A stretch of DNA of 62,500 nucleotides from Lachnospiraceae bacterium (lineage in GTDB: Bacteria; Bacillota; Clostridia; Lachnospirales; Lachnospiraceae): assembly GCA_910575605.1 (NCBI GenBank), contig CAJTEW010000012.1, positions 1 through 62,500 of the forward strand, read 5' to 3'. The notes under the pieces were generated by a model that worked only from the letters and a program-made list of their open reading frames with translations, made no database searches and had not been told where the DNA came from. Position 1 is the stretch's first letter; each line of letters opens with the position of its first letter. A program made the translations under genes and the position numbers. This document shows positions 246-20,760 of this stretch, piece after piece.

Positions 246-968
246 ATGAAGGCGATTTTGCTGGCAGCAGGGAGAGGCACAAGAATCTCTCGGATGGTAA
301 AAGAGATACCTAAGTCTACATTACCTGTTAAGGGAATACCTTTAATTCAGCTGACCGTTGATATGCTCCAGAGAAAAGGGATTGAAACAGTTGTTTGTGT
401 CGGGTATCAGCAGGATATGATACGTGATGCCTTAAAAGGTTATGAGGTGACATACTATTTTAATCCTTTTTATGATGTAACGAATAGTATTGCCAGCTTA
501 TGGTTTGCAAGACAAGAGTTAAAGGATGACTGTCTGGTTATTAATGCAGATGTATTTTTTTCTGACGAAATTCTAAAGATGATTGTTGAGGATGAGCATC
601 AGGCTGTAATGATGGTAGATAAGTCGAGAAGGAAAACGGGTGATTACTTCTTTTCGACCACAGATAATGGGTGTATTAGGAAATATGGAAAAGATTTGCC
701 ATTACAATACAGAAGCTGTGAATATGTCGGAGTTTCCAAGGTGACCAGAAGATTCATGCCATATTTTATGAAAAGGATGGAAGAGCTGATTGGGGCGTCG
801 AAGCATGGACTATGGTGGGAGGATACATTGTATTCTTTTACAAATGCAAATGAGCACCAGATTTATACAAGGGATGTTGAAGGTCTGTTCTGGTCTGAAA
901 TTGACTATTTTGATGATTATGAGAGAATATTAAATTATTTTGCAAGTCAGAAAGAGAACAAGCTATGA
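246..968 (+). CDS. LicC/PntC-like CTP nucleotidyltransferase
   Basis: A 240-residue GT-A-fold nucleotidyltransferase. The N-terminal LAAGRGTRI signature loop with K for phosphate binding (KSTLPVKG) is clear, and NADVFF supplies the metal-binding Asp. The segment FYDVTNSIASLWFA resembles LicC-type phosphocholine cytidylyltransferases and PntC 2-aminoethylphosphonate cytidylyltransferases, so a CMP-activated phospho- or phosphonoalcohol is the likely product. The start is ATG 246, placed 8 nt after GGAG (234-237); upstream GTG 237 overlaps the ribosome binding site and is less likely. The gene overlaps the aminotransferase by 4 nt, so they are translationally coupled, and a CDP-glycerol-type transferase lies later in the cluster. 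The substrate is inferred; a sugar-phosphate nucleotidyltransferase remains possible. Confidence 0.75.
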   Translation: MKAILLAAGRGTRISRMVKEIPKSTLPVKGIPLIQLTVDMLQRKGIETVVCVGYQQDMIRDALKGYEVTYYFNPFYDVTNSIASLWFARQELKDDCLVINADVFFSDEILKMIVEDEHQAVMMVDKSRRKTGDYFFSTTDNGCIRKYGKDLPLQYRSCEYVGVSKVTRRFMPYFMKRMEELIGASKHGLWWEDTLYSFTNANEHQIYTRDVEGLFWSEIDYFDDYERILNYFASQKENKL

Positions 969-2029
969 AATTATTTACAATAGGACCCGTTGAGATGTTT
1001 CCAGAGACATTGGCAATAAATGCAGAACAGCTGCCGTATTTTAGGACTCCAGAGTTTTCAGAGATTATGTTGGAAAACGAAGTATTATTTAGAGAAAGCA
1101 TCTGTGCGTCTAGAAATGATAAGGTTGTTTTTCTTACTACATCGGGAACAGGAGCAATGGAAGCAGCGGTTATAAATTGCTTTACTTCTAATGACAGATT
1201 ATTGGTTATAAATGGGGGAAGCTTTGGTGAAAGGTTTGGAGAAATCTGCAGAATTCATAAGCTTTTATATGACGAAGTGCATCTGCCTTTTGGAGAAAAG
1301 CTGACAAGAGAGAATCTGGAGCCTTATTATAAAAAAGGATATAAAGGACTGCTGGTGAATCTGCATGAGACGTCTACCGGACAGTTATATGATATAGGAA
1401 TGCTGGCGGAGTTCTGCAGAGAAAACGATATGTATCTCATTGTAGATGCAATTGGTGCATATGGAGCAGACGAAATAGATTTTAAAAAGTACGGAATAGA
1501 CGTACTGATTGTGAGTTCACAGAAAGCTTTGGCGCTGGCACCGGGAGCAGCAGTAGTAGTTATTAGTGAAAGAATATATAGAGACAAGGTAACAGTAACA
1601 GAATCGGGCTGCCTTTACTTGGATTTTAAACAGCATATAGATAATATGGAAAGAGGGCAGACACCTTTTACGCCGGCTGTAGGAATTTTTTTGAGTTTGA
1701 ATCAGCGTCTGAAGCAGATACACAATATCGGGATGAAGCAGATGATAAAAGAGGTAAAAGAACTGGCTCTTAAGTTTAGACGAGAGGCAGAAGAAAAGGG
1801 GGTTAAGGTTCCAGAGTATCCATTGTCAAATGCGCTTACACCTATTATAGCGGAACCATACGCAGAAGAATTATACCTTGGACTTAAAGCAGAATATGGA
1901 CTGATGGTGACACCAAATGGGGGAGAACTGCGGCAGGTTCTTGTAAGGATAGGACATTTGGGAAATGTAAGATGGGAAGATTATGAAGAGCTTTTAGAGG
2001 CTATGTGTGAGGTGAAAAAGAGATTATGA
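965..2029 (+). CDS. Class V aminotransferase, PhnW / alanine-glyoxylate transaminase-like
   Basis: A 354-residue PLP enzyme of the fold-type I class V group. It begins with the family's typical N-terminus (FTIGPVEM), has TSGTGAMEAA for PLP phosphate binding near residues 59-68, an Asp at 161 (IVDAIGAYG) and the presumed Schiff-base Lys187 in SSQKALALAPG. Length matches 2-aminoethylphosphonate-pyruvate and serine/alanine-glyoxylate transaminases. The start ATG overlaps the stop of the cytidylyltransferase, a pairing that recalls reported PntC-transaminase fusions in phosphonate pathways. No PEP mutase or phosphonopyruvate decarboxylase is visible here, so the amino-group acceptor is unknown. 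The family call is firm, the substrate is not. Confidence 0.8.
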   Translation: MKLFTIGPVEMFPETLAINAEQLPYFRTPEFSEIMLENEVLFRESICASRNDKVVFLTTSGTGAMEAAVINCFTSNDRLLVINGGSFGERFGEICRIHKLLYDEVHLPFGEKLTRENLEPYYKKGYKGLLVNLHETSTGQLYDIGMLAEFCRENDMYLIVDAIGAYGADEIDFKKYGIDVLIVSSQKALALAPGAAVVVISERIYRDKVTVTESGCLYLDFKQHIDNMERGQTPFTPAVGIFLSLNQRLKQIHNIGMKQMIKEVKELALKFRREAEEKGVKVPEYPLSNALTPIIAEPYAEELYLGLKAEYGLMVTPNGGELRQVLVRIGHLGNVRWEDYEELLEAMCEVKKRL

Positions 2030-2808
2030 GAGAGGCAGTAGAAAGCGATAGAAAGAGAATACTGGAGTATCTCGAACATGATCTCAAGAATTGTATATAT
2101 CTATATATTGATATAATAAATTATGGAATATCAGCAAAAAACATGAAGGTATGGCTTGAAGAAGAGGATAGCAGATTAAACATGGTTGTAATGAAGTATT
2201 ATGACAGCTATCAGATATACAGCCATAAATTAATATGCAGGGTAGAGGAAATCCTGTATTTGTTTCGTAAATATCCGGCATCGATGATATCTGGAAGAAA
2301 GGACATTATACAGCAGCTTGCAATTAGACTAAAAAATTATAAAGCAGATTATGGAGTTATATTCATTATGGATAAGTACAGACCTGTTAAGGCAATAGAT
2401 AAGGTCATAAGGGCTGTTCCTGAGGAGGCTGAAGAAATTGCACGGTTGATATGTTCGGATAGTGAGATAGGCGGACATTATACAGTAGAGGCTCTAACCA
2501 GACAGCTTAAGGAGCGTATATGTACAAGGACAGGTAGAAGCTATATTATACGAGAGAATGGAGATATAGCGGCACATAGTGCGACATATGCAGAAGCAGA
2601 TAAAATAGCTGTTGTAGGCGGTACAATTATTAAGCAGGAATACAGAAACTTAAATTATTATATGCTCCTTAGTAATTACATGCTGCAACAGTTAACTGCG
2701 GAAGGGAAAAAGGCATATACATTTTCTATAACTGATAAAATGATTCAGTATCATGAAAAAATGCATACAAAGTGCAGTGAATATGGGAAATTAGTGATTT
2801 ATAAGTGA
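2026..2808 (+). CDS. GNAT-fold acyl/aminoacyltransferase-like protein
   Basis: A 260-residue protein starting inside the aminotransferase stop (ATGA overlap). The N-terminal half has no recognisable motif. The C-terminal half has the GNAT pattern: a beta strand (KIAVVGGTIIKQEYR), the acyl-donor loop region with an RNLNYY helix start, and a terminal YHEKMH segment resembling the YHKKMGY end of other GNAT proteins. Two further GNAT-like proteins occur in the cluster (7396, 9809), each beside an adenylation enzyme or carrier protein, suggesting carrier-bound acyl or aminoacyl donors rather than acetyl-CoA. The acceptor may be the amino group made by the preceding enzyme. The function is inferred. 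Confidence 0.6.
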   Translation: MREAVESDRKRILEYLEHDLKNCIYLYIDIINYGISAKNMKVWLEEEDSRLNMVVMKYYDSYQIYSHKLICRVEEILYLFRKYPASMISGRKDIIQQLAIRLKNYKADYGVIFIMDKYRPVKAIDKVIRAVPEEAEEIARLICSDSEIGGHYTVEALTRQLKERICTRTGRSYIIRENGDIAAHSATYAEADKIAVVGGTIIKQEYRNLNYYMLLSNYMLQQLTAEGKKAYTFSITDKMIQYHEKMHTKCSEYGKLVIYK

Positions 2809-2835
2809 TAAATATATAAAAGGAGAAATTTTGTT

Positions 2836-3066
2836 ATGAAAGAAAAAATTCTAGAGGTTTTAAGAGAAGTTAATGAAGAGATATTAGAAGATACGGAAAG
2901 GGACTTGCTGGCAACAGGAATTTTGGATTCTTTTGATATTGTAAATATGGTGGTTGAATTAGAAGAGGCTTTTGATATTGTGATTGACGTGGATTTAGTG
3001 ACTCCTGACAACTTCCGTACAGCTGATTCTATTATAAACGTTATGGAAAATATTATAAAGGGATAA
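2836..3066 (+). CDS. Acyl/aminoacyl carrier protein 1 (DltC-like)
   Basis: A 76-residue acidic four-helix carrier protein. The phosphopantetheine site is Ser32 in LLATGILDSFDIVNMV, closely resembling the GLLDSxxxV motif of the D-alanyl carrier DltC, followed by a helix LEEAFDI typical of the family. A GGAG ribosome binding site lies at 2822-2825. It is the first of five carriers in the cluster and precedes a WcbI-like gene. Loading by one of the DltA-like enzymes at 5621 or 8302 is plausible. No phosphopantetheinyl transferase is encoded in the window, so a housekeeping enzyme must activate it. Confidence 0.85.
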   Translation: MKEKILEVLREVNEEILEDTERDLLATGILDSFDIVNMVVELEEAFDIVIDVDLVTPDNFRTADSIINVMENIIKG

Positions 3067-3082
3067 GGAAGACAGCATTGTT

Positions 3083-4324
3083 ATGAAAGAGCAGATCAAG
3101 GCGCTTGTAAGAGAACGAATGTCAAAACGAAGGATTGTTTTATTTGGTGCAGGCATAATTGCAGAAGAATTTTATGAAGAATATAAGCATGTTTTAAATA
3201 TTTCCCATTGTGTAAGCAATATTCAAAAAGAATGGGGAAAAGAGATGTTTATGGGGGAGCTAGATGTAAAAAAATTTGATAAAAAAGAAATACAGTCTGA
3301 AGATTATATAATTATATGTGGACCAATTGCATTCAGGACGATTGAAATTCAGCTGAATAATGAAGGGTTCCGTATGTATCAGGATTTTGTAGAGTCCCAT
3401 ATTGCTTCTGCAATATTTGAAAATAAAAAAATTGCTTTATTTTATGGTCAATGTGTATTAAGGGATATTTTCCAGTGCCTGAAAAAAGTCCCGGCATTTG
3501 AGAAGGAGTATATGTCTATATGGACACAGACATCAAAACACCAGGCTGTGATTGGGAATCGTGTATTATATTACACAAAGGAGCTTTGTGATTTGTATGT
3601 ATATACACCGAAGATTTTGGATCGGGATAGTATTTATAATATATCTCGCGAGGAGTTACCAAAAGACTGCCAGGCTGTCAGTGTGTCAAATTTAATTGTC
3701 TCTTTATATTGGCCTCAAATAGTGCCAGATATAGAAACATTTAATGAATGGTATATTCATCCATATAATGCAAAAAGAGATTTAGATTTTTACCACACCT
3801 TATATCGGTGGGAAGATAGAAACATTAATCGGATGGTATCGGAAGGAATGATGACAGAAGAAATTGTAAAAATTCTTTCTGATGAGAATTTTTATTCAGA
3901 AAAACAGGTCAATAAGACAAAAAAGGTTTCTCTAAAATTGATTAGTATTGCAGAAAAAGGTGTGGATATTGCAGTTGGTGACTTCATAGAAGATAATTAT
4001 CGTTCAATTAGGCTTTATCAGAACTATATTCATTCTAATAAAATTGTTGTATGGGAATACGTCAGGAGATTGTTAAATCAAATTGGTGTTTCTACGAGCG
4101 AAGTTGCTCAATTGGAAAAAGAATCTCCAGAGCATATTCATGAAGGAGGCGATGTTCCTATATATCCTAGTGTTGCGAAATGTTTAAATCTGGAATTTAT
4201 AGATAAGAAAACGATATATGAAGTTATGACAGGTAAAGAGATTGTTTATATGACCTTTGGAGAATATATAGAACACTATGCGGAGTATACAAGAAAAGCA
4301 ATGGAAATTGTCCACATGTGGTAA
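3083..4324 (+). CDS. WcbI-like protein, paralogue 1 of 3
   Basis: A 413-residue protein with two parts. Residues 15-110 look like a small Rossmann-type domain (IVLFGAGIIAEEF, YIIICGP). Residues 115-413 resemble WcbI-type polysaccharide biosynthesis proteins, a CoA-binding acyltransferase-like family: strand KKIALF, then YGQC with Cys124 where WcbI has its GNCQ-type loop, then a long alpha-helical region. Motifs LYWPQ, ENFYSEKQV and VPIYPSVAK are shared with the paralogues at 4334 and 16793, so all three derive from one ancestor. The context of carrier proteins and adenylation enzymes suggests acyl transfer to a glycan. The WcbI assignment is by motif only and could be wrong in detail. Confidence 0.6.
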   Translation: MKEQIKALVRERMSKRRIVLFGAGIIAEEFYEEYKHVLNISHCVSNIQKEWGKEMFMGELDVKKFDKKEIQSEDYIIICGPIAFRTIEIQLNNEGFRMYQDFVESHIASAIFENKKIALFYGQCVLRDIFQCLKKVPAFEKEYMSIWTQTSKHQAVIGNRVLYYTKELCDLYVYTPKILDRDSIYNISREELPKDCQAVSVSNLIVSLYWPQIVPDIETFNEWYIHPYNAKRDLDFYHTLYRWEDRNINRMVSEGMMTEEIVKILSDENFYSEKQVNKTKKVSLKLISIAEKGVDIAVGDFIEDNYRSIRLYQNYIHSNKIVVWEYVRRLLNQIGVSTSEVAQLEKESPEHIHEGGDVPIYPSVAKCLNLEFIDKKTIYEVMTGKEIVYMTFGEYIEHYAEYTRKAMEIVHMW

Positions 4325-4333: not shown

Positions 4334-5596
4334 ATGGATTTAAAGAAGGTATGTGGTGATATTAAAAAAAGGGACATTGTCCTTTATGGAGATCAAGATG
4401 AAATAGAACTGTTTCTTGATACTTATTATGATTTACTGAATATACATACTGTAATTACAGAATTTAAAGAAGAATATATACTACAGCCTTATATAAGGTG
4501 GAACATTAAGGTGGAACTGTTTGATGAGATAAAGCTGTCAGAGGAGCAGTTGGTTGTTATCTGTTCTTCTTATAGGTTTGGGCTACTAAAGAGATATCTG
4601 GATTATTCGGGAAAAAAGGAATATAAGGACTATATCAGTCAGGAATTAGTTGAACATTTAGTATACCACAAAAAATTAATGGTGTGTATGGGAACACAGT
4701 TAATGCAACAGGTTTGTTTATTTCTTAAAAGGCATCAGAAATTGATTGAACAATATAGTATTATATATTATCCAGAAGACGGGTTAATGGAGGCGTATTG
4801 CAACAGGCTTGTTGAATATGTACATGCATGTAGATGCTGTGATGTCTATATCCGCTCTTCATGTGAGAAAGAGCGCTTTCCGCTTAAAATACCAGGCAGA
4901 AAAGTATTAAATGAGAATTGTAAAATTATAACGGTCGCAGATTATTGCTTTGGGGGATATTATCCACAGATTATTAAAGATAGAAATAGAGTTAATGATT
5001 ATTTGATGAGAGAACGAATACGTCTGGATATGGATTATGAAACTTTAGCATTTTCTAGGACAGATAAGGAAATTTTAAAATTGTGTCAAAAACAGACGAG
5101 TGTAAATAATATTGTAGAGATACTAATGGATGTTAATTTCTACTCTCAAGAGACAGTAAACAAATATTTTTCACATGAATTAGAACTATTTAGGCAACAG
5201 GAAAGAACTGCAGATATTAAATTAAGTGATTTTATTTATAATCAGAAACAGAAATATTTATGCTACAACTTGAATGAATGGACAGAGCCAGTTATTTCTT
5301 ATATTAGCAATGCTGTCGTTAAAATGCTGAATGTGCCTCCTATGTATATTAATGAAGAGGAGGGTAGGAAGCTGCTAGAGGAATCTATTGGAAGTGAATT
5401 ACCAATTTATCCAAGTGTACAGAAAGCCCTTGGACTTGAGGAGATGGTTGGTAATAAAAAATACAAAGTAGTTACTTATACGAAGATAGAATATATGGAG
5501 TTAGAAAAATATCTTAATTTTATTACAAATTATCTTTATAAAGCAATAGATATTATGGAATTCACTGGGATGAATGAACGGCTCAAGGAAAATTAG
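4334..5596 (+). CDS. WcbI-like protein, paralogue 2 of 3 (loop Cys lost)
   Basis: A 420-residue protein in tandem with paralogue 1, only 9 nt apart. The same layout is present: an N-terminal Rossmann-like part (DIVLYGDQDE), KKLMVCMG at about residue 113, VNFYSQETV and LPIYPSVQKALGLE near the C-terminus. The loop equivalent to YGQC/GACQ reads MGTQ, so the Cys found at position 124 or 126 of the other paralogues is missing. The glycine-rich FGAG of the first domain is also changed to YGDQ. This copy may be non-catalytic, for example a structural partner, or may have changed specificity. No frameshift is seen, so it is unlikely to be a decaying gene. Confidence 0.55.
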   Translation: MDLKKVCGDIKKRDIVLYGDQDEIELFLDTYYDLLNIHTVITEFKEEYILQPYIRWNIKVELFDEIKLSEEQLVVICSSYRFGLLKRYLDYSGKKEYKDYISQELVEHLVYHKKLMVCMGTQLMQQVCLFLKRHQKLIEQYSIIYYPEDGLMEAYCNRLVEYVHACRCCDVYIRSSCEKERFPLKIPGRKVLNENCKIITVADYCFGGYYPQIIKDRNRVNDYLMRERIRLDMDYETLAFSRTDKEILKLCQKQTSVNNIVEILMDVNFYSQETVNKYFSHELELFRQQERTADIKLSDFIYNQKQKYLCYNLNEWTEPVISYISNAVVKMLNVPPMYINEEEGRKLLEESIGSELPIYPSVQKALGLEEMVGNKKYKVVTYTKIEYMELEKYLNFITNYLYKAIDIMEFTGMNERLKEN

Positions 5597-5620: not shown

Positions 5621-7147
5621 ATGATAACAAATGTATTAGAGTATCTGGAAAAATCAGCGGAAAAGTATCCTGAAAAATTAGCATTTGTAGATGAACACGA
5701 AGGATATACTTATGATGTATTAAAAAATTATGGACATGCGATAGGTACTAAAATTGCGGAATACCATATGATTCGAAAACCTGTTGTAGTGTATTTGGAA
5801 AAAAGTGTAAGAGTAATTGCTTCCTTTGTTGGGATTTTGTATAGTGGGAATTTTTATTGCCCTATAGATACTTCAATGCCTTTAGAACGAGTGAGGACTA
5901 TACTTACAACGCTGGAAAGCTGCGTAATAATTACAGATGAGACTCATGCAGAAATTATTTCATCTGTTGTACCAGATAGGGATTTGTTATTGTACGATGA
6001 AATAATATCCGGAGGAAAAAATCTAGAATTATTGAATGATATAAGAAGAGAAATAACAGATATGGATCCCATTTATGTTTTATTCACCAGTGGTTCCACA
6101 GGAGTTCCTAAGGGGGTAGTTATTTCTCATCAATCTGTTATAGAGTATACGGAATGGGTTACAGAGACTTTTGATATAACAGAGCGAGACAGCTTTGGGA
6201 ATCAGGCTCCATTTTATTTTGATAATTCTATTTTGGATATATATTGTGGATTGAAAAACAGCGCAACAGTATATATTATTCCTCAGATTTGTTTTAGCTT
6301 TCCTAAAAAATTACTGGAATATCTAAATGAAAAACGGATAACTACCATATTCTTTGTGCCTTCTGTTCTATGCTTAGTTGCCAGAATCAAAGGTGCGTTA
6401 TCAAAAATACAGCTGACAACGGTAAAAAAGATACTGTTTTGCGGTGAAGTAATGCCTAATAAGCATTTAAATATTTGGCGTAAATATATGCCAAAAGCAT
6501 TATTTGCTAATTTATATGGCCCGACAGAAATTACAGATGTATGTACATATTATATTGTGGACAGAGAATTTGATGATGACGAACCACTTCCAATTGGAAA
6601 AGCTTGTAGAAATACAAGCTATGTAATACTAAATGAAAAAAGGGAAGCAGCTTTAAAAGGTGAGGTTGGTGAACTCTGCATTAAAGGAAGAAGTCTTGCC
6701 TTAGGATACTATAAAAATTTCCAAAAAAGTAATGAGGTATTTATCCAGAATCCGTTGAATCACGAATATAGAGAGCTGATATATTGTACAGGTGATCTGG
6801 TTCGGGTGAATGAAAGAGGTGAGATTATTTATTTAGGGAGAAAGGATTATCAGATTAAACATTTGGGCCACAGAATTGAGCTGGGAGAGATTGAGGTTGC
6901 TGCTGGAGGAATTGAAGGTATTGAAACATGTGCGTGTATATATGATGACGAAAAACAGAAGATAGTATTTTACTATAAAGGGAAAAATTATGAAAATGTT
7001 CTTTTAAAAGAGTACTTAAAGAAAAAAATACCAGAGTATATGCTGCCGGATACAATTATTGAGATAGAAGAATTTCCGTATAATCCTAATGGAAAAATCG
7101 ATAAGAAAAATTTAAAAGATATGTATTTAACTAGAAAGGAAAAGTAA
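5621..7147 (+). CDS. DltA-like amino acid adenylation enzyme 1
   Basis: A 508-residue stand-alone adenylate-forming enzyme that should activate a carboxylic or amino acid with ATP and load it on a carrier protein. Core motifs are visible in order: A3 LFTSGSTGVPKG, A4 region APFYFDNSILDIYCG, A5 LYGPTEITD, A7 YCTGDLV, A8 GRKDYQIKHLGHRIELGEIE and A10 PNGKIDKKNL with the catalytic Lys. The A4 segment resembles D-alanine ligase DltA. A GGAGG site precedes ATG 5621. The stop codon is immediately followed by the carrier protein start at 7148, so enzyme and carrier are co-produced. A near-duplicate lies at 8302. Substrate side chain cannot be read reliably by eye. Confidence 0.85.
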   Translation: MITNVLEYLEKSAEKYPEKLAFVDEHEGYTYDVLKNYGHAIGTKIAEYHMIRKPVVVYLEKSVRVIASFVGILYSGNFYCPIDTSMPLERVRTILTTLESCVIITDETHAEIISSVVPDRDLLLYDEIISGGKNLELLNDIRREITDMDPIYVLFTSGSTGVPKGVVISHQSVIEYTEWVTETFDITERDSFGNQAPFYFDNSILDIYCGLKNSATVYIIPQICFSFPKKLLEYLNEKRITTIFFVPSVLCLVARIKGALSKIQLTTVKKILFCGEVMPNKHLNIWRKYMPKALFANLYGPTEITDVCTYYIVDREFDDDEPLPIGKACRNTSYVILNEKREAALKGEVGELCIKGRSLALGYYKNFQKSNEVFIQNPLNHEYRELIYCTGDLVRVNERGEIIYLGRKDYQIKHLGHRIELGEIEVAAGGIEGIETCACIYDDEKQKIVFYYKGKNYENVLLKEYLKKKIPEYMLPDTIIEIEEFPYNPNGKIDKKNLKDMYLTRKEK

Positions 7148-7393
7148 ATGCGAGAAACGATATTGGAGATATTAAGTGAGTCTAATGCTAAGATCAGGAT
7201 AAATGCAGATAAGAATTTATTAGAAGAAAGGTTAATTGATTCCTTTGAGATTGTTAATATTGTAATGAAATTAGAGGATGCTTTTCATATTGAAATCAAT
7301 CCAGAGTTGATAGTTTCTGCAAATTTTCAGACTGTAGATAGTATTGTGAAATTAGTACAGGACATTGTTGAAAAAGAAAATGGAGAAATATAA
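7148..7393 (+). CDS. Acyl/aminoacyl carrier protein 2 (DltC-like)
   Basis: An 81-residue carrier protein with Ser32 in ERLIDSFEIVNIVM as the phosphopantetheine site and a typical LEDAFHIEI third-helix region. It begins on the base after the adenylation gene's stop, so translation is coupled and it is the natural acceptor for the product of the 5621 enzyme. It is most similar to carrier 1 (2836), sharing the DSF-IVN pattern and the NF-T-DSI segment before the last helix. The GNAT-like gene follows after 2 nt, completing an adenylation-carrier-transferase triad reminiscent of aminoacylation modules. Confidence 0.85.
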   Translation: MRETILEILSESNAKIRINADKNLLEERLIDSFEIVNIVMKLEDAFHIEINPELIVSANFQTVDSIVKLVQDIVEKENGEI

Positions 7394-7395
7394 AT

Positions 7396-11656: not shown

Positions 11657-11670
11657 AAGGAGTGGAACTT

Positions 11671-12740: not shown

Positions 12741-12980
12741 ATGGAACAGTTAAGAAAATATAACCAGGTTTTTATGGAAGCTTTTTCGCTTGCAGAGGGA
12801 GAATTGACAGATAAGGTTGTAATGGGGGAGACTACAGACTGGGATTCTATAGGGCATGTTAATTTAATTACTTCCATGGAAGATGTTTTTGATATTATGT
12901 TTGAAACAGAGGATATTTTGGAGTTTACTTCCTATACTAAAGGAAAAGAAATCTTGAAGAAATATAATATATACATATAA
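12741..12980 (+). CDS. Acyl carrier protein 4
   Basis: A 79-residue carrier protein with Ser36 in TTDWDSIGHVNLITSMED, the phosphopantetheine attachment site. The C-terminal helix region (EFTSYTKGKEILKKY) is typical of stand-alone carriers in surface polysaccharide loci. An AAAGGAAA site precedes ATG 12741. Lying between the KAS III and the carboxyltransferase, it may be the malonyl or ketoacyl carrier of the pathway. Confidence 0.8.
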   Translation: MEQLRKYNQVFMEAFSLAEGELTDKVVMGETTDWDSIGHVNLITSMEDVFDIMFETEDILEFTSYTKGKEILKKYNIYI

Positions 12981-12996: not shown

Positions 12997-14541
12997 ATGT
13001 GGAATCGAAAATATATTGAGGAATTGATTGAAAAGAGGAAGAAAGCACGAAAAGGCGGCGGGGAAGAACGGATCTACAGGCAGCATGAAAAGGGAAAGCT
13101 GACTGCGTGGGAAAGATTAAATATTCTTTTTGATGAAGGCACTTTTGTAGAAGTTGATAATTTGATTGAATCCCGGATTGATGATTTTCAGATGAAGGAA
13201 AAAAGAGTTCCTGGTGATGGTGTTATAACTGGATATGGAGAAATAGACGGTAGACTTACATTTGCTTATTCAGAAGATTTTACAGTAATAGGCGGTACTT
13301 TGGGGGAATATCATTCCTTGAAGATCTGCAGAATTATGGACCGTGCGTTAGAAATGCGTGCACCGCTTATTGCAATCAATGATAGTGGCGGCGCCAGGAT
13401 TGAAGAGGGAATTAGTTCTTTAAGTGGATATAGCGGAATGTTTCTGAGAAATACAAGAGCGTCAGGGGTAATCCCTCAGATTGCAGTTATTGCCGGGCCT
13501 TGTGCAGGGGGAGCCTGCTACTCTCCGGCAATTTGTGATTTTATTTTTATGACGGAGAGTAACAGCAGAATGTTTATAACAGGTCCGGGGGTTGTAAAAG
13601 AAGTTATTGGGGAAACAGTATCTTCTTTTGAACTTGGGAGTTCAAGAACCCATATGGAAAAAAGTGGGGTTGCACATTTTGCTTTTAAGAATGATGAGGA
13701 ATGTCTGAATGGAGTAAGAAATCTGTTATCTTACCTGCCTGCCAATAATGAAGAGATAATGAAAATCGCAGAGTGCAGTACAGAGGATAAATCTAGCCTG
13801 CTGCAGGAAATTGTACCCGATGAACAAAGAAAAGTTTATGATGTGCATAAAGTAGTAGAGGTAATTGTTGATCCGAAAAGTTTTTTGGAAGTCCAATCGG
13901 ATTATGCATCTAACTTGGTGATAGGATTTGGGAGGCTAAATGGACAGTCTCTTGGTATTGTAGCTAACCAGCCGTTTGTTATGGGGGGATCATTAGATGT
14001 AAATGCGTCTGAAAAAGGGGCGAGATTTATTAGATTTTGTGATGCATTTAATATTCCAGTTCTGTCACTTATAGATGTACCGGGATTCTTTCCTGGAACA
14101 CAGCAGGAGCATGGCGGTATTATACGAAAAGGTGCAAAGCTTCTGTATGCATATTCAGAGGCTACAGTTCCAAAAGTATCTCTTATTATGCGGAAAGCGT
14201 ATGGCGGTGCATATATCGCCATGAATAGTAAAAATATGGGAGCAGATATGGTATATGCATGGCCTATTGCGCAGATTGCGGTTATGGGAGCGGAAGGAGC
14301 GGCAGATATTATTTATAGGCAGGAAATAAAAAATGCGGAGGACAGCAGAGCAATAAAAAAGGGATTTGTAAAGAAATATGAGGAAACTTTTATGAATCCA
14401 TATATTGCTGCAAAAAGAGGATATATAGACGAGGTGATTCTGCCGGAAGAAACGAGAGAAAAGCTTATATGTGCATTTAGGATGTGCCGGACTAAAAGAA
14501 GGAGTATAGTTACAAAAAAGCATGGTAATATACCACTTTAA
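12997..14541 (+). CDS. Acyl-CoA carboxyltransferase subunit (PccB/MmdA-like), no partner subunits
   Basis: A 514-residue carboxyltransferase of the propionyl-CoA carboxylase beta / methylmalonyl-CoA decarboxylase alpha family. Both crotonase-like halves are present: oxyanion-hole motifs DSGGARIEEGISS near residue 128, GPCAGGACYSPA, and in the C-terminal half PGFFPGTQQEHGG, MRKAYGGAYIAM and the end QIAVMGAEGAADI. It transfers a carboxyl group between biotin and an acyl-CoA. No biotin carboxylase, biotin carrier or membrane subunit lies in the window, so it must borrow these or act alone. In this setting it could supply malonyl- or methylmalonyl-CoA for the KAS III and malonyl transferase nearby. 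Confidence 0.85.
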   Translation: MWNRKYIEELIEKRKKARKGGGEERIYRQHEKGKLTAWERLNILFDEGTFVEVDNLIESRIDDFQMKEKRVPGDGVITGYGEIDGRLTFAYSEDFTVIGGTLGEYHSLKICRIMDRALEMRAPLIAINDSGGARIEEGISSLSGYSGMFLRNTRASGVIPQIAVIAGPCAGGACYSPAICDFIFMTESNSRMFITGPGVVKEVIGETVSSFELGSSRTHMEKSGVAHFAFKNDEECLNGVRNLLSYLPANNEEIMKIAECSTEDKSSLLQEIVPDEQRKVYDVHKVVEVIVDPKSFLEVQSDYASNLVIGFGRLNGQSLGIVANQPFVMGGSLDVNASEKGARFIRFCDAFNIPVLSLIDVPGFFPGTQQEHGGIIRKGAKLLYAYSEATVPKVSLIMRKAYGGAYIAMNSKNMGADMVYAWPIAQIAVMGAEGAADIIYRQEIKNAEDSRAIKKGFVKKYEETFMNPYIAAKRGYIDEVILPEETREKLICAFRMCRTKRRSIVTKKHGNIPL

Positions 14542-14558: not shown

Positions 14559-15320
14559 TTGAACAAGGAAAAAGAAATGCTGAAGGGGAAAGTATGTCTG
14601 ATTACTGGGACAAGCCGCGGGATTGGAAAGGAGACTGCAGAGTGTTTTGCCAGGGAAGGAGCAATTGTGTATGCGAATGCAAGGGCAAAAGGAGGTCTTG
14701 CAGAATGGTCAGATAATATAAATATAAAAAGTAAGGGAAAGATCATTCCTTTATTTTTTGATATTACAAATACAGAAGAGATAAGAAAAGCAGTTATGCG
14801 GATAAAAAAGGAACAGGGAAGAGTAGATGTCCTTGTTAATAATGCTGGAATGGTCAGCAATGAAATGCTGGGAATGATTTCAATTGATAAGACAAGAGAA
14901 ATGTTTGAAGTAAATGTATTTGGACTTTTGAATCTTACACAGCTTATTACAACAAGATTTATGATGAAACAAAAAAATGGAAGCATTATCAATTTATCTT
15001 CAGTTGTAGGAATCGAAGGAAGTAAAGGGCAGGTTGCTTATTCTGCCAGTAAAGGCGCTGTTGCAGCGCTAACAAAGTCAATGGCAAAGGAGCTGGCTCC
15101 ATATAACATACGGGTTAATGCTCTGGCGCCAGGAATGATACAGACGGAGCGTCTTGAAGAAACGATTAGAGATGTATATAAGGGCAGAACACCTTATGTT
15201 GGTATGGGAAGGCTTGGAGAGCCTAGGGAAATTGCAGATGGATGTCTCTATTTGGCATCAGAGAGTTCGAGCTATGTAACTGGTCAGATTTTGGTTATTG
15301 GCGGAGGAATTGTACCATAG
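14559..15320 (+). CDS. SDR-family 3-oxoacyl-ACP reductase-like 2 (FabG-like)
   Basis: A 253-residue classical SDR very like FabG: LITGTSRGIGKETA nucleotide loop, VNNAGM, catalytic Ser in NLSSVVG, YSASKGA, PGMIQTE and the closing VTGQILVIGGG. The start TTG 14559 is 7 nt after AAGGAGG; ATG 14577 (MLKGKVCLITG) behind a weaker AAGGAA is an alternative that removes six residues. It is the second ketoreductase of the cluster, so either two ketones are reduced or one SDR acts on a sugar. The order carboxyltransferase-SDR-adenylation enzyme fits an acyl-building function. Confidence 0.8.
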   Translation: MNKEKEMLKGKVCLITGTSRGIGKETAECFAREGAIVYANARAKGGLAEWSDNINIKSKGKIIPLFFDITNTEEIRKAVMRIKKEQGRVDVLVNNAGMVSNEMLGMISIDKTREMFEVNVFGLLNLTQLITTRFMMKQKNGSIINLSSVVGIEGSKGQVAYSASKGAVAALTKSMAKELAPYNIRVNALAPGMIQTERLEETIRDVYKGRTPYVGMGRLGEPREIADGCLYLASESSSYVTGQILVIGGGIVP

Positions 15321-15366: not shown

Positions 15367-16755
15367 ATGTTTCTAGAAATTGAAAAAAAGAATCAAGAGA
15401 ATATAGCATTAATAGATAGTGAGGGAAATCAAGTTTCTTATGGAGATATTGTAAAATTTGTTCCTTCCTTTTATTCTGCTGTTAATAAAAGAACATTAAT
15501 ATTTGTTTTGAATGATAACAGTGTAGGCGCTGCTTTGGGTTATCTGGGTGCAATGAGTAATCATATAGTTCCACTGATGCTGGGTGCATCTATGGATAAA
15601 GAGTTATTAGGGGAACTGATTCGTATATACCAGCCTGAATATATCTGGAAACCTTTGTGTATGGCAGAGAGTAAAGATGTTCTATTTGAAGGCTATCATT
15701 ATGTTTTGGAAGCAACAGGGCTGACGGGTTATCCGTTATATGAAGAACTGTCATTGCTCCTAACTACTTCAGGGTCAACAGGAAGTCCAAAGCTGGTTCG
15801 ACATTCTTATGCAAATTTAGAGGCGCAGGCGAAAAATATATCTGCATTTTTTGAAATGGACGGCACAGAAAGACCTATTGTAGACCTTCCAATTAATTAT
15901 ACGTACGGGTTGTCTGTAATGAACAGCCATTTGTATTCTGGTGCAACAGTACTTCTTACTTCTATGAATGTTTTAAATCCAAAATATTGGGTATATTTAA
16001 AAGAGCAGAAGGCAACTGTTTTTACAAATGTTCCGTATAGTTATGAAATTTTGAAAAAATTACGTGTATTTAAAATGGAGCTACCCTATCTTAAAATTTT
16101 TACACAAGGAGGGGGAAAGCTAAATGAGGAATTGCATCGGGAATTTGCGGAATACGCGAAAAATACTGGAAGAAAGTTTATTGTTACTTATGGGCAGACA
16201 GAGGGAAGCGCTAGAATGGCATATCTTCCATCAGAATATGCTATAGAAAAATGTGGAAGTATCGGGAAAGCAATTCCAAATGGAAAACTTTATCTTCTTG
16301 ATGAAGAAGGAAAGAAGATTACAGAACCAGGAGTAATCGGAGAGATGGTGTATGAAGGACCTAATGTAACATTAGGATATGCACAGTCAGGAGAAGATCT
16401 GCTTCTTGGTGATGAAAGACATGGAGTGCTGTATACTGGCGATATGGTAAAGATGGATGGAGATGGATTCTTTTATATTGTAGGAAGAAAGAAGCGTTTC
16501 CTTAAACTATGTGGGTATAGAATTGGGCTGGATGAATGTGAAAATATAATTAAATCTGCTTTTGATACAGAATGTGCTTGTGTAGGGAATGACGACTGCA
16601 TGCACATTTATGTTACGTCTGAAAAGGAGCATGAAAAGATAAAAAGATATATTGCAGATAAGCTTGGTATTAATTCCGGGGCTTTCAAGGTCTGCCATAT
16701 TGAGCAGATTCCAAGAAATGAGGCCGGAAAAATTCTATATAGTAAATTATCATAA
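15367..16755 (+). CDS. AMP-forming acyl ligase-like enzyme 3
   Basis: A 462-residue adenylate-forming enzyme, distinct from the two DltA-like copies and closer to acyl-ACP/acyl-CoA ligases. It has LLTTSGSTGSPKLVRHS (P-loop), VTYGQTEGSARM, LYTGDMVK, GRKKRFLKLCGYRIGLDE and the C-terminal catalytic Lys in EAGKILYSKL. It lacks the first 40 or so residues of larger ligases, making it short for the superfamily but complete in motifs. A GAGGAGAGG site precedes ATG 15367. It could activate a free fatty or hydroxy acid for loading on one of the carriers. Confidence 0.8.
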   Translation: MFLEIEKKNQENIALIDSEGNQVSYGDIVKFVPSFYSAVNKRTLIFVLNDNSVGAALGYLGAMSNHIVPLMLGASMDKELLGELIRIYQPEYIWKPLCMAESKDVLFEGYHYVLEATGLTGYPLYEELSLLLTTSGSTGSPKLVRHSYANLEAQAKNISAFFEMDGTERPIVDLPINYTYGLSVMNSHLYSGATVLLTSMNVLNPKYWVYLKEQKATVFTNVPYSYEILKKLRVFKMELPYLKIFTQGGGKLNEELHREFAEYAKNTGRKFIVTYGQTEGSARMAYLPSEYAIEKCGSIGKAIPNGKLYLLDEEGKKITEPGVIGEMVYEGPNVTLGYAQSGEDLLLGDERHGVLYTGDMVKMDGDGFFYIVGRKKRFLKLCGYRIGLDECENIIKSAFDTECACVGNDDCMHIYVTSEKEHEKIKRYIADKLGINSGAFKVCHIEQIPRNEAGKILYSKLS

Positions 16756-16792: not shown

Positions 16793-18037
16793 ATGAAGAA
16801 AAGTGCAGAACAGATAAAGGCATTGATAAAGTCCAGACTTGAAACGGGAGATCTTGTTATTTGGGGTTATAATGATAAGGCCAGGGAATTTTACTATAAG
16901 TATAAAGAGAGCTTTCATATAAAAGGCTGTATAACAGAACAGAAAAATCATCCGGATTATTTGGATAATGAAAGCAGAATTCCGGTTGTAGGCTGGGAAA
17001 AATATGACATGAAGGAAAACGATTATATTATTATTTTTGCAGGCCCTCTTATGCATATTGAAAATCAGATACTGGCAAGTGGACTAAAAGTTTTTGAAGA
17101 ATATGTAGATTCGACAGTAGCGGAGGTTGTTTTGACAAAAAGAAAAATTGCAATTATGGCAGGTGCTTGTCAAACCGCTGTAATATGTAACTTTTTATGG
17201 ACTATAAACGATTTCAAAGAAGAATATATGTTAATACGCTTTTCGATACATTTTTGGAAAAGCAGATGGTCATTAAGGCTTCAGAGCTTTGTGAAAAATA
17301 TGTGTGAACTATATATTTGTATGCAGCATGAGGAAGATAATCCTTTATATTTTAGCCCAGAGGAACTGCCAAAAACATGTAGAATAATTACACTACCAAG
17401 TGCGTTAGTACGACTTTACTGGCCACAGATGGGAAGAAGTTGGAAAAGTGCATTGAACTCATATTTTAAAAAGGATAATAATAGGCCAGATCATGGTCCT
17501 TTTGAATATGGGGATGAAAACATTAACAGAATGATAGAAGAGGGTAAGGATGTCGAAGAAATTATAACGGTGCTCACTGGAGATAATTTTTATACAGAAG
17601 AACAGGTAGAGAGACATATTAATACAATGCTGCGGATGTTGGAATATGAAGAAGATAAATGTGATATAAAAATTGCATCGTATATTCGTAGTAACTTTAA
17701 GAAAAAAATGTTATATAGAGATATGGCGCATATGCATACCTGCCTCGTGTGTGAGATGGTAAGGGCAGTTTTAAGATACCTTGGTTTAGGTACAGACGAA
17801 GTGGATAAGATGGAACAACTGAAAGATAATCCCACTATTCAGGAATATGAGACACACTGTACAGAGGTTCCCATATATCCCAGTGTTGCAAAATATCTGG
17901 GATTAGAATGGTGGGATAAAGATATAAAGTATGACGTGAGATTTTACAATGGGATAAAGAAAATTACTTTTGAAGAATATATTCGGAGGTATTATAGTGT
18001 GTGCAGCAAAACGAAACAGATCTTAGAGGAATGGTAG
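16793..18037 (+). CDS. WcbI-like protein, paralogue 3 of 3
   Basis: A 414-residue paralogue of the proteins at 3083 and 4334. It keeps the N-terminal Rossmann-like part (LVIWGYNDKAREF, YIIIFAGP) and the loop AGACQTAVICNFL with Cys126-Gln127, the best match among the three to the WcbI-type G-x-C-Q motif. Further shared motifs are RLYWPQM, DNFYTEEQV and VPIYPSVAKYLGLE. It lies 37 nt after the acyl ligase and 8 nt before the malonyl transferase, far from its tandem relatives, so it may serve the acyl half of the pathway whereas the others serve the aminoacyl half. The assignment rests on motif similarity. Confidence 0.6.
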   Translation: MKKSAEQIKALIKSRLETGDLVIWGYNDKAREFYYKYKESFHIKGCITEQKNHPDYLDNESRIPVVGWEKYDMKENDYIIIFAGPLMHIENQILASGLKVFEEYVDSTVAEVVLTKRKIAIMAGACQTAVICNFLWTINDFKEEYMLIRFSIHFWKSRWSLRLQSFVKNMCELYICMQHEEDNPLYFSPEELPKTCRIITLPSALVRLYWPQMGRSWKSALNSYFKKDNNRPDHGPFEYGDENINRMIEEGKDVEEIITVLTGDNFYTEEQVERHINTMLRMLEYEEDKCDIKIASYIRSNFKKKMLYRDMAHMHTCLVCEMVRAVLRYLGLGTDEVDKMEQLKDNPTIQEYETHCTEVPIYPSVAKYLGLEWWDKDIKYDVRFYNGIKKITFEEYIRRYYSVCSKTKQILEEW

Positions 18038-18045
18038 GATAATCT

Positions 18046-18951
18046 ATGAGTAAAATAGCATTTGTATTTCCGGGGCAAGGAACTCAGTATATTGGAATGG
18101 GCAAGGATTTTTACGAAAGTTTTTCCATATGTAAAGAAGTTTTTCATAAAGCCTCTGATGAATCAGGAATTGATATTCCTAAACTATGTTTTGAGGAAAG
18201 TGAAAAAATAAATGTAACAGAATATACACAGATTGCAATACTTACAGTAGAGGCTGCAATTTTAGCGGTTATAAATGAAAAGGGAATCATTTCCACGACA
18301 TCTGCCGGCCTTAGTCTTGGGGAGTATGGGGCGTTGATTGCTTCTGATACGCTTTGCGTAGAGGATGCATTTCGGATAGTGAGAAAGAGAGGACTTTATA
18401 TGCAGGAGGCAATGCCTGTGGGAGGCGCTATGGCAGCGGTAATTGGAGCAGCTCAATATACAGTAGAAGGAATTTGTGAAAAATCAGAAGGTATTGTATC
18501 AATAGCTAATTATAATTGTCCTGGGCAGATTGTCATAACCGGGCATACAGAGGCAGTCAAAAGGGCGGGAGAATTATTAAAGGAGAAAGGAGCTAAAAGA
18601 ATCCTTCCATTAAATGTAAGTGGGCCGTTTCACTCTGAGTTATTATATGAGGCTGGAAAAAGGCTGGAAAAAGTATTAAATACAATAGATATAAGAGAGC
18701 CTGTAAAACCATATATTTCAAACGTGACAGCGGATTATGTAACAAAAAAAGAAGATATAAAGCAGCTTTTAGTGAAACAGGTTTCGTCACCAGTGAGATG
18801 GCAGCAGAGTGTAGAGCGCATGCTTGAAGATGGTGTGGATACTTTTATAGAAATTGGTCCGGGAAAAACTTTAACTGGATTTCTAAGGAAGATTAATAAA
18901 AATGCTAAAGCAATCAATGTGGGAGTTGTCAAAGATTTGGAAAAGCTATAG
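18046..18951 (+). CDS. fabD: Malonyl-CoA:ACP transacylase (FabD-like)
   Basis: A 301-residue acyltransferase with all FabD hallmarks: FPGQGTQ at residue 8, nucleophile Ser90 in GLSLGEYGAL, Arg115 in KRGLYMQ that normally binds the malonyl carboxylate, PVGGAMAA, and catalytic His196 in GPFHSEL. Length is normal for FabD. It should load malonyl (or methylmalonyl) groups onto a cluster carrier protein for the KAS III. It is probably a dedicated copy rather than the housekeeping gene, because no other fab elongation genes accompany it. Confidence 0.88.
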   Translation: MSKIAFVFPGQGTQYIGMGKDFYESFSICKEVFHKASDESGIDIPKLCFEESEKINVTEYTQIAILTVEAAILAVINEKGIISTTSAGLSLGEYGALIASDTLCVEDAFRIVRKRGLYMQEAMPVGGAMAAVIGAAQYTVEGICEKSEGIVSIANYNCPGQIVITGHTEAVKRAGELLKEKGAKRILPLNVSGPFHSELLYEAGKRLEKVLNTIDIREPVKPYISNVTADYVTKKEDIKQLLVKQVSSPVRWQQSVERMLEDGVDTFIEIGPGKTLTGFLRKINKNAKAINVGVVKDLEKL

Positions 18952-18974
18952 AAATGAAAGGGACAGCCTGATTT

Positions 18975-20507
18975 ATGAGAAAAGCAGTTAAAAGAAAAAT
19001 ACTTGATTTATTTACAACTCTGCGGGAGGCGCATAATGAGATACGTCTGCTGTTGCAGAAGGAGGAGTATGTAAAGGTAAATAATATTCTGGCAGATTGT
19101 CAGGAATGTGCATTATTAGCAGGGAACACGATAGAGCAGTTTGAGAAAAATCAGAAAGATATCGTCAGAGAGCTGGAAGAATATTGTGAACAAGTATTTG
19201 AGATCAGCTCTTGTCTGGAAAATAAAGCAAGGCTTAATGCTAATGAAATTCAGAAGAAATTGAACTTATACATTCAGAGGGCACATGAAAAAGTGGAAAG
19301 TAATATTACAGCAGCTTTAAAGGTTGTTTTTATGCCTTATAAAGCATCTATGTGGACCAGTTTGGAATCTGTATGGGAAGCAGCAGCAGCAGATGAGGCG
19401 TGTGAGGTTAAAGTGGTTGTAATTCCATATTATACATTGGATTTTGAAGGAAATAAGAAAGAGTTACATTATGAAGGCGAATTGTTTCCGAAGAATGTAC
19501 CAGTGGTACATTTTGATGAATACATTTTGGAGCATGAGCACCCGGACATAATATTTATTCATAATCCTTATGATGGAACCAATAATGTGACGAGAGTCCC
19601 AGAGAAGTATTATTCGTATAATTTAAAACGTTATACAGACCATCTGGTATACAGTCCATATGGTATGATGGGATATTATTCGCCAAAGCAGGGGGCTTTT
19701 ATGTGCTATATGAGTGCAATTCACATAGCTGATAAGGTACTGGTGCAGTCTGAAAAGGTTAAGCAGATATATATCGACCACGGAGTTGAGCGGGAAAAGC
19801 TTTTGGCAATAGGTTCGCCTAAGGTTGATGCAATAATAAGAGGGATGAAAGAATCAAAAATATATCCGAATGAATGGAGAGAGAAATTAGAAGGGAGAAA
19901 AGTATTTTTGCTAAATACCCATTTGTCATATTTTATAAATGGATATAATTACCAACAAAAATATGGAAAAGAAAAAAGCTATGCAGAATGGTACCATGAA
20001 AATATTTTTGAAAATATTTTGGATAAACCAGGTTGTGCTTTAATATGGCGGCCTCATCCATTGCTTAAAGATACATTGAAAAGTAGGGAGCTTTATTCCA
20101 CTTTAGAATTTATTGAAGCGTTGGAGAGACAGCTGAAGGAGTCTGAGAATGGTGTATTGGATATAAATGGAGACTATAATATTTCATTTCGATTGTCAGA
20201 TGCACTTATTACTACATATAGTTCAATGATTCCAGAATACATGATTTCTGGTAAGCCGGTATACATATATGAGGGGAGATTAAATGAAGGAAACTGCAGA
20301 AAATCTCCTATGAGTTATATTAATAATTATTATAGGGCTAGACGTGGAGAAGGGAGAATGCTTCCTAAATTTATAGAAATGGTTTTAAATGGAGACGATC
20401 CATTATATAATAAAAGAATGGATGATGTACATCGGGCATTTACTAATTTGGATGGCACGATTGGAAAAAGAATATATGAGAAATTAAAAAAAGAATTTGA
20501 TGTATGA
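18975..20507 (+). CDS. CDP-glycerol glycerophosphotransferase-like protein (TagB/TagF fold)
   Basis: A 510-residue protein with a helical N-terminal extension of about 110 residues and a GT-B-like C-terminal part of the CDP-glycerol:polyglycerophosphate transferase type. Visible motifs are KVLVQSEKVKQIY and AIGSPKVDAI, the nucleotide-binding WRPHPLLK, and DALITTYSSMIPEYMISGKPV, matching the family's conserved RPHP and SSxxxEY blocks. Such enzymes transfer a phospho-alcohol from CDP-X. With the LicC/PntC-like gene at 246 this suggests that the cluster installs a CMP-derived phosphoryl or phosphonyl group on a glycan. The acceptor is unknown. No membrane segments are evident. Confidence 0.7.
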   Translation: MRKAVKRKILDLFTTLREAHNEIRLLLQKEEYVKVNNILADCQECALLAGNTIEQFEKNQKDIVRELEEYCEQVFEISSCLENKARLNANEIQKKLNLYIQRAHEKVESNITAALKVVFMPYKASMWTSLESVWEAAAADEACEVKVVVIPYYTLDFEGNKKELHYEGELFPKNVPVVHFDEYILEHEHPDIIFIHNPYDGTNNVTRVPEKYYSYNLKRYTDHLVYSPYGMMGYYSPKQGAFMCYMSAIHIADKVLVQSEKVKQIYIDHGVEREKLLAIGSPKVDAIIRGMKESKIYPNEWREKLEGRKVFLLNTHLSYFINGYNYQQKYGKEKSYAEWYHENIFENILDKPGCALIWRPHPLLKDTLKSRELYSTLEFIEALERQLKESENGVLDINGDYNISFRLSDALITTYSSMIPEYMISGKPVYIYEGRLNEGNCRKSPMSYINNYYRARRGEGRMLPKFIEMVLNGDDPLYNKRMDDVHRAFTNLDGTIGKRIYEKLKKEFDV

Positions 20508-20517
20508 AAGGAATAGT

Positions 20518-20760
20518 ATGAGAAGAGAAGAAGTGCTGGAAAGAGTACAGGCTATTTTTAAAGAAGTGTTCAATGACACATCACTTTTTGTAAGTGATAA
20601 CACACCAGTGAAAGAATGGGATTCTTTTGAGCGTATTGATCTAATAGTTGCTATTGAAGAAAAATTTGGAATTAGGTTTCCGATGAAAAAAATAATGACG
20701 GCAAAAACGATAGGAGAAATTGTGGATACAATACTTGAAATGGAAGGGCTAAGCAGTTAA
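20518..20760 (+). CDS. Acyl carrier protein 5
   Basis: An 80-residue carrier protein with Ser36 in PVKEWDSFERIDLIVAIEE and FGIRFPMKK typical of acyl carriers in capsule and flagellin loci. ATG 20518 sits 5 nt after AAGGA; ATG 20500 would overlap the transferase stop and lacks a ribosome binding site. It is the last gene of the run, and its stop codon lies inside the palindromic terminator that follows. Confidence 0.82.
   Translation: MRREEVLERVQAIFKEVFNDTSLFVSDNTPVKEWDSFERIDLIVAIEEKFGIRFPMKKIMTAKTIGEIVDTILEMEGLSS

Follow-up and report, generated by a model that had tools for sequence, protein, structure and literature searches.

Introduction

Flagellin glycosylation islands in which an amino compound is joined to a flagellin sugar through a phosphodiester are the closest described counterparts of the locus considered here, a run of 22 genes (W01-W22) beside flagellar genes in a Lachnospiraceae bacterium (assembly GCA_910575605.1, contig CAJTEW010000012.1, here C12). 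The window, by which we mean the whole stretch analysed, comprises bases 1-62500 of this 102363-bp contig, in a genome of 3.81 Mb on 92 contigs. In Clostridioides difficile Type A, N-methylthreonine is phosphodiester-linked to N-acetylglucosamine (GlcNAc) on flagellin; LicC-like CD0242 and TagF-like CD0244 are proposed to make and use CDP-threonine, and mutants in the cytidylyltransferase or TagF-like gene carry the core GlcNAc only (PMC10714395). The b-type flagellin glycan of Pseudomonas aeruginosa follows the same logic (PMC11833859), and the Type B cap consists of taurine, alanine and glycine (PMC5207245).

A second logic is known from Pseudomonas syringae, where a flagellin island with an acyl carrier protein (ACP), a beta-ketoacyl-ACP synthase III (KAS III) and a reductase acts on the acyl group of the sugar; a mutant and mass spectrometry were used there to test the reductase (PMC3927599). 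The carriers in Aeromonas and Enterobacteriaceae flagellin islands are known by genome survey (PMC7874193, PMC4875605). Among natural-product enzymes, VinM is a precedent for amide bond formation on a carrier by an adenylating enzyme without a condensation domain, and VinO for decarboxylation on a carrier (PMC11284099). The solved structure of the capsule protein WcbI has Cys14 and His201 holding the head of acetyl-coenzyme A (CoA); the purified protein binds CoA, three assays gave no transfer, and a partner has been proposed (PMC4104973).

At the level of gene families, the present island resembles the Type A (cd0240-cd0244) and b-type (pa1088-pa1091) clusters: in each, the neighbours of fliC include a glycosyltransferase, a LicC-like cytidylyltransferase and a CDP-glycerol-type phosphotransferase. 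Unlike Type A, its 22 genes include no PSP/ThrH-like enzyme or methyltransferase; an aminotransferase is found instead, and carriers and acyl genes are added. With the P. syringae viosamine and P. aeruginosa PAK islands, which place 3-hydroxybutyryl on the sugar, it shares an ACP, a KAS III and a 3-oxoacyl-ACP reductase (PMC3927599), but the former uses a dTDP-viosamine route and the seven genes listed for it include no amino-acid adenylation enzyme, WcbI or CDP-type transferase. Aeromonas Group II and Enterobacteriaceae flagellin islands likewise have an ACP, an AMP-dependent synthetase/CoA ligase and a 3-oxoacyl-ACP reductase (PMC7874193, PMC4875605); they differ in LuxC/LuxE, Aeromonas also in pseudaminic-acid genes, and the accessible parts of those reports describe neither a DltA-like pair nor a WcbI triad. 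Dlt D-alanylation offers a DltA-like ligase with a DltC-like carrier, yet W07 scores 311.6 bits against a TIGR01734 cut-off of 559.85 and W04 32.9 bits against 52.35 for TIGR01688, and Pfam and NCBIfam scans of the island genes matched neither DltB nor DltD. Dissociated adenylating enzymes acting with a free carrier are also found in vicenistatin (VinN-VinO-VinL-VinM) and butirosin (BtrI/BtrK) biosynthesis (PMC11284099), and three sibling islands described below have a BtrK-related pyridoxal phosphate (PLP) decarboxylase beside an adenylating enzyme and carrier; the window island has no decarboxylase, and it is tied to flagellin genes.

An earlier note on this DNA, made from the sequence alone, had called the pathway undescribed-looking, with known relatives only partial. 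No description of the island's gene combination was found among titles and abstract openings of the open-access literature, and the Pseudomonas-type ACP/KAS III/reductase likeness named there holds. However, carriers with KAS III or AMP ligases had already been published for Pseudomonas, Aeromonas and Enterobacteriaceae flagellin islands (PMC3927599, PMC7874193, PMC4875605), and the closest scaffold, the Type A/b-type phosphodiester glycan, had been missed.

Results

Flagellar context and recurrence of the island

From its gene content and surroundings, we regard the locus as a real, recurrent, flagellin-linked island in which two known flagellin-modification logics appear to be merged with a dissociated carrier line. 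It is probably a flagellin-modification island, in an operon with fliC and a glycosyltransferase gene as 5′ neighbours and with kept ends (W01-W02 ... W18 ... W21), and flagellin is very probably the target. Base 1 of the window is also base 1 of C12 and falls inside a gene for a family 2 glycosyltransferase with tetratricopeptide repeats (GT2-TPR). On a separate 3087-bp contig of the same genome (C58), a flagellin gene (PF00669/PF00700) is followed by a 671-aa GT2-TPR glycosyltransferase (PF00535 plus TPR), and the last 100 bases of that contig, read on the reverse strand, are identical to window bases 1-100. Overlaps of this kind are typical of places where an assembler could not settle a join, so the order in this genome is likely fliC-GT2-W01, with the GT2-TPR gene adjoining fliC and standing between it and W01. 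In a second genome of the genus (G001), fliC-GT2-W01-W02 ... W19-W21 runs unbroken on one 28510-bp contig (locus L139, apparently record CAMNTM010000025.1). On the 3′ side of the island, C12 carries an opposite-strand methyl-accepting chemotaxis protein gene and a transglycosylase, then FliF, FliG, the export ATPase, FliM, FlhB and FlhA; a 124-aa frame in this region, at 23856, had no family match.

For the wider comparison, an island-like locus was defined as one with a short-form W21, a carrier and an adenylating enzyme (BLAST), and was sought among the best 80 of at least 585 confirmed W21 relatives in a scan of named genomes. Eight of the 80 qualify (L139-L142, L146-L148 and L197), which with the window gives 9 loci in 8 genomes. 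Seven of the nine lie inside flagellar filament loci (10 proteins of the sibling loci were checked with Pfam): besides the window and G001, these are G725, whose island has FlgK, FlgL, FliW, FliD, FliS and FliC as neighbours; G726 (FlgL, FliW, CsrA-like, FliC); G727, where FlgL, FliW and a CsrA-like frame precede W01; contig C17 of G728, where the island adjoins fliC-GT2; and G729, with FlgL and FliW before the island and FliD, FliS and FliC after it. The labels CsrA-like, IspD-like, TagD-like and extended short-chain dehydrogenase/reductase (SDR) in the relatives' loci are presumptive, having been given by eye from the first residues and without a scan. Since other genomes have the gene arrangement too, chance does not account for it. 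The neighbourhood search proposed in the earlier note thus bears out the flagellar association, and homologues mainly beside capsule genes were not what was found for the whole island, although its single genes W01, W02 and W21 do occur in LicD-type surface-glycan loci.

Kept ends and an exchanged interior

Genes were tallied over 8 loci (the window's, G001, G725, G726, G727, both G728 loci and G729). W21 and the acyl ligase are present in all 8, and W01 and W02 in 6. Identity to W01 is 94.6% in G001, 75-80% in G725-G727 and 66% in G729; for W21 it is 69.4% in G001, 62, 61 and 59% in G725-G727 and 39-40% in G728 and G729; and for the acyl ligase W18 it is 77.9% in G001, 76, 74 and 69% in G725-G727 and 48-56% in G728 and G729. 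Between these genes, the sibling islands instead hold a PanE-like reductase, a metallo-hydrolase and further ligases. The PLP decarboxylase beside an adenylating enzyme and carrier, absent from the window island, is found in G001, G726 and G727; it scores under the lysA and TIGR03099 cut-offs, and its best solved match is 6knh (106.8 bits), with BtrK, an L-glutamyl-[BtrI ACP] decarboxylase, at 88.9 bits. Conversely, none of the sibling island genes examined has KAS III (W14), FabD (W20) or the SDR W13 as its best match, and the sibling islands themselves hold no W16-like carboxyltransferase, the nearest relative (L141:17243-18868(+), 61%) lying some 6 kb outside the island of G726. Kept ends with swapped inner genes would be expected of a fixed attachment machine fed by interchangeable acyl-making cassettes. 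Another W16-like gene (L126:7216-8814(-), 50%) sits beside a W01-W02 pair in G215.

Gene content

The earlier note's description of about 22 co-oriented genes of named families in one run is confirmed, as is the position of that run; the true start of the cluster is upstream, its 5′ end being cut by the contig edge (Table 1). The genes are packed on the plus strand into 246-20760 as one operon, and each frame is without an internal stop. The starts adopted here (W10 8302, W11 9809, W12 10684, W22 20500) give intergenic distances between about -23 and about +51 nt, with 4-nt overlaps at W01/W02 and W02/W03. Family scans of the 22 genes, together with a structure model for W03, identify 5 carriers, 3 adenylate-forming enzymes, 3 WcbI-like proteins, 3 GCN5-related N-acetyltransferases (GNATs), KAS III, FabD, 2 SDRs, an MmdA-type carboxyltransferase, a nucleotidyltransferase, a class-V aminotransferase and a PF04464 transferase. 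All five carriers (W04, W08, W12, W15, W22) keep the Asp-Ser site, and four match PF00550, W15 being matched by NCBIfam ACP models only. Catalytic motifs are intact in W14 (Cys-His-Asn) and W13 (YxxSK and TGxxxGxG); W12-W15 make up an ACP, KAS III and 3-oxoacyl reductase set.

Table 1. Island genes and the adjoining glycosyltransferase fragment, in window coordinates (pLDDT, predicted local distance difference test; pTM, predicted template modelling score)
Feature	Position	Strand	Basis
3′ end of GT2-TPR flagellin glycosyltransferase gene	1..77	+	frame 3 reads NQLMALLPGDPEVLKMKQEIIAHRL*, same as end of L017:21-2036(-)
W01 LicC/PntC-like cytidylyltransferase	246..968	+	PF12804/PF00483; nearest solved LicC 1jyk 55.2 bits, then PntC-AEPT 6pd1 46.7 bits
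W02 class-V aminotransferase, 3f0h family	965..2029	+	below curated 2-aminoethylphosphonate transaminase cut-off; 4-nt overlap with W01
W03 tandem-GNAT acyltransferase	2026..2808	+	model pLDDT 90.0, pTM 0.82; Foldseek to tandem GNATs
W04 carrier 1, DltC-like	2836..3066	+	PF00550; nearest NCBIfam DltC; DSF site
W05 WcbI-like 1, Cys and His kept	3083..4324	+	PF18588 37.0 bits (cut-off 29.2)
W06 WcbI-like 2, without Cys and His	4334..5596	+	PF18588 46.0 bits (cut-off 29.2)
W07 amino-acid adenylating enzyme, DltA-like	5621..7147	+	PF00501; TIGR01733 320.3 bits, above 317.4
W08 carrier 2, DSF type	7148..7393	+	PF00550; DSF site
W09 tandem-GNAT acyltransferase	7396..8250	+	PF00583; model pLDDT 89.8, Foldseek
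W10 amino-acid adenylating enzyme, W07 paralogue	8302..9831	+	PF00501; TIGR01733 313.8 bits, just below 317.4
W11 GNAT acyltransferase, W09 paralogue (35% identical)	9809..10669	+	PF12746/PF00583; alignment
W12 carrier 3, WDS type	10684..10902	+	PF00550
W13 SDR, FabG-like	10916..11656	+	PF13561; motifs
W14 KAS III	11662..12720	+	PF08541/PF08545; Cys, His, Asn motifs
W15 carrier 4, WDS type	12741..12980	+	NCBIfam ACP model 1.6e-5; no Pfam match
W16 MmdA-type acyl-CoA carboxyltransferase subunit	12997..14541	+	PF01039; mmdA 749.3 bits, below cut-off 998.8
W17 SDR, FabG-like	14559..15320	+	PF00106; relatives in most sibling islands
W18 acyl-adenylating ligase	15367..16755	+	PF00501
W19 WcbI-like 3, Cys and His kept	16793..18037	+	PF18588 55.0 bits (cut-off 29.2)
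W20 FabD malonyl transferase	18046..18951	+	TIGR00128 317.1 bits, above 260.9
W21 TagF-like CDP-polyol-type phosphotransferase	18975..20507	+	PF04464 34.2 bits, above 22.1
W22 carrier 5, WDS type	20500..20760	+	PF00550

W03 had no Pfam or NCBIfam match. The matches of the W03 and W09 models to solved structures (Foldseek) are at fold level, with template modelling scores of about 0.4-0.7 and 7-17% identity; the tandem GNATs among them include FemX/MprF-type and streptothricin aminoacyl transferases, and the best matches are CoA-dependent acyltransferases.

WcbI-like proteins

PF18588 is rare, being found in 7 of 299 genomes of the family, and a profile of the long form matched 3 of 391 genomes of the class, two of them in part. 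As in the Burkholderia capsule WcbI, the Cys14 and His201 of the CoA pocket are kept in W05 and W19; unlike it, the island proteins begin with an additional domain about 110 aa long, come as three paralogues with carriers adjoining, and include W06, in which both residues are lost. The division is constant across the islands: all 8 copies of the first protein (one read in two halves) and all 4 of the third keep Cys and His, while none of the 8 copies of the second has either at the aligned positions, two fused copies having a His two columns on. The fusions, both in G728, join the second WcbI-like protein to an adenylating enzyme (L225:3483-6251(-) and L147:15724-18495(+); 922 and 923 aa); they align with W06 by BLAST at 26% identity (E 1.9e-35 and 5.9e-40), and Pfam finds their AMP-binding part only. 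A WcbI gene is also next to a carrier in L239, L241 (a carrier without a Pfam match) and L197, where no flagellar gene was seen. Because of the fusion to an adenylating enzyme and these carrier neighbours in three loci without flagellar appearance, we infer that the WcbI proteins use carrier-bound donors. A general rule that WcbI is always beside carriers can be discarded, since of six other PF18588 genomes two have the pairing (L239, L241) and four do not (L236, L237, L238, L240).

Discussion

The best model would be a Clostridioides Type A-like phosphodiester scaffold with a dissociated aminoacyl/acyl-carrier line added to it. The GT2 would set a sugar on flagellin Ser/Thr. W02 would yield an amino compound, and W01 would activate the phosphate ester of this compound as a CDP derivative. 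Amino acids would be loaded by W07 and W10 onto the DltC-like carriers and another acid by W18 onto a WDS-type carrier; in this genome, W16, W20, W14 and an SDR may in addition make a short carrier-bound beta-hydroxyacyl group, in line with the proposal for Pseudomonas modified viosamine (mVio). The tandem GNATs would then form amides by transferring acyl or aminoacyl groups from the carriers to amines, while hydroxyls would be acylated by the WcbI proteins, in which copies that look active are accompanied by one that looks inactive. Finally, W21 would shift the finished (acyl)amino-alkyl phosphate from cytidine monophosphate (CMP) to the flagellin sugar. Phosphodiester transfer by W21 is likely, and so, to the same degree, is the donation of aminoacyl and acyl groups by the carriers to the phosphodiester-linked moiety. 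The order of the steps as listed is doubtful, and acylation and transfer may come in either order.

Flagellins of gut Firmicutes meet the host immune system. If the model is true, flagellin decoration in these bacteria goes beyond sugars and simple acyl groups and includes aminoacyl and acyl groups built on free carriers. A broader reading joins two proposals: a natural-product-like flagellar group in some gut Lachnospiraceae, made on an aminoacyl/acyl-carrier line of fully dissociated proteins and passed on via a CDP donor; and WcbI proteins that are carrier-dependent acyltransferases, a catalytic copy working with a pseudoenzyme partner. We put this joint reading forward tentatively, giving it somewhat less than even weight. 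Were it right, carrier dependence and the partner copy would supply the donor and the partner absent from the earlier WcbI assays. The WcbI question has in any case become testable, with family members that come with carriers, a partner lacking Cys and His and, in the genome G728, fusion with an adenylating enzyme.

Several observations weigh against a flagellin-dedicated island. The seven filament loci are not seven independent events, as the loci are related by descent, and nearly all the island genomes are metagenome-assembled genomes (MAGs). Of 116 related genomes, 3 have a relative of W05; within the genus 2 of 6 have one, and the other four examined (G002-G005) do not. In the second G728 locus (L147), unrelated genes separate the island from a flagellin gene about 20 kb away on the opposite strand; L197 has no flagellar gene within its 12.3 kb; and neither G728 locus shows W01-W02. 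The TagF-like label of W21 rests on PF04464, because a profile search of the Protein Data Bank gave no match at E 0.01. Homologues of W01, W02 and W21 also occur, among the matches listed, in LicD-type surface-glycan loci. Lastly, short W21 forms as a class are no oftener near fliC than long ones: in the 80 best loci, with flanks of at most 10 kb, fliC was near 6 of 48 short and 4 of 32 long forms, and the notion that short forms mark flagellin loci was dropped.

Some of these points belong to an alternative in which the target of the island is a capsule or teichoic-like surface glycan and the flagellar neighbours are incidental. Homologues of W21, W01 and W02 do lie in LicD, TagD-like and rhamnose loci, and a second W21 (42%) lies next to LicD on contig C16 of the same genome. 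But the 22 genes have no Pfam match to LicD, a polysaccharide polymerase or a flippase, and the filament-locus placement of seven of nine whole-island loci involves three types of junction (fliC-GT2; fliC followed by a divergent GT2; a position behind FliW and a CsrA-like frame). On this context we reject a capsule-only reading for the whole island, which we consider improbable, and keep it for single genes. The adenylation domains, carriers, KAS III and FabD, and in three siblings the BtrK-related decarboxylase, are enzymes of natural-product type, and could instead be taken to make a secreted soluble peptide or polyketide-like compound at an accidental flagellar position; yet no thioesterase, condensation domain or exporter was matched by Pfam in the 22 genes, and the GT2, cytidylyltransferase and TagF-like parts stay constant while the interior changes. 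Of the alternatives, this is the one to which we give least credence.

Hardly more credible is a third alternative, that flagellin bears 2-aminoethylphosphonate (AEP), with W02 as AEP transaminase and W01 as CMP-AEP synthase. The W01-W02 order mirrors the Treponema denticola PntC-AEPT fusion, which both proteins match, and C16 encodes phosphoenolpyruvate (PEP) mutase, phosphonopyruvate decarboxylase (Ppd) and a true PhnW, all over the cut-offs (411.5 against 319.55 bits, 456.5 against 312.5 and 451.8 against 360.8). W02, whose best solved relative is 3f0h, reaches just 120.5 bits on the same AEP transaminase model (TIGR03301), so that the earlier note's term PhnW-like can refer only to a distant kinship; the C16 operon has its own nucleotidyltransferase, and Pfam scans found no PEP mutase or Ppd among the 22 island genes. 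Close relatives of W02 (19 matches, 42-52% identical, E <=9.5e-87) are present in 18 of 299 family genomes besides its own and, among the matches listed, are often paired with W01-like and LicD genes in rhamnose or other surface loci. In the 23 other genomes that have a close W02 (G001, the 18 just named, and G725, G726, G727 and G729), some of them incomplete MAGs (G254, for example, 86%), PEP mutase never exceeded its cut-off; the test left out 8 weaker W02 matches (25-29% identity) and a fragment in G304. PEP mutase was present in the window's own genome and, among the further genomes tested, in G022, which is negative for W02, in G732 (that of L153) and in G735, the genome of island-like L197. 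On the curated cut-offs and PEP-mutase co-occurrence, the phosphonate reading is rejected. Of the (amino)acyl- and phosphoryl- or phosphonyl-bearing flagellin or surface glycan that had been envisaged, flagellin, the (amino)acyl group and the phosphoryl group are thus retained, given fliC-GT2 upstream and the seven flagellar loci, and the phosphonyl group is not.

Related loci

The C16 region (L015:6949-17456, L077:1686-4012) holds a complete AEP operon, with Ppd, a nucleotidyltransferase, a cytidylyltransferase-PEP mutase fusion and PhnW, together with LicD, a DltA-like enzyme, a W03-like GNAT (38%) and the second W21. Relatives of W21 occur in 69 of the 299 genomes of the family and in 26 of the 391 of the class; many are forms of about 850 aa, and some sit in LicD or TagD-like surface loci. 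The long forms include L086-L091 and further loci, several of them LicD/TagD-like surface-glycan loci, and two copies of about 850 aa on the genome's own contig C15. A broken-looking locus with many short frames (L122, on contig C7 of G254) combines W01, W02, LicD and W03 genes. Other flagellin islands, in L153 (the named strain Clostridium chromiireducens DSM 23318), L083/L084 (G453) and L144 (G730), have LicD, a W21 relative and frames judged by eye to be IspD-like and SDR-like in the midst of FliC, FliD and FliS genes, a content that suggests polyol-phosphate-like flagellin groups.

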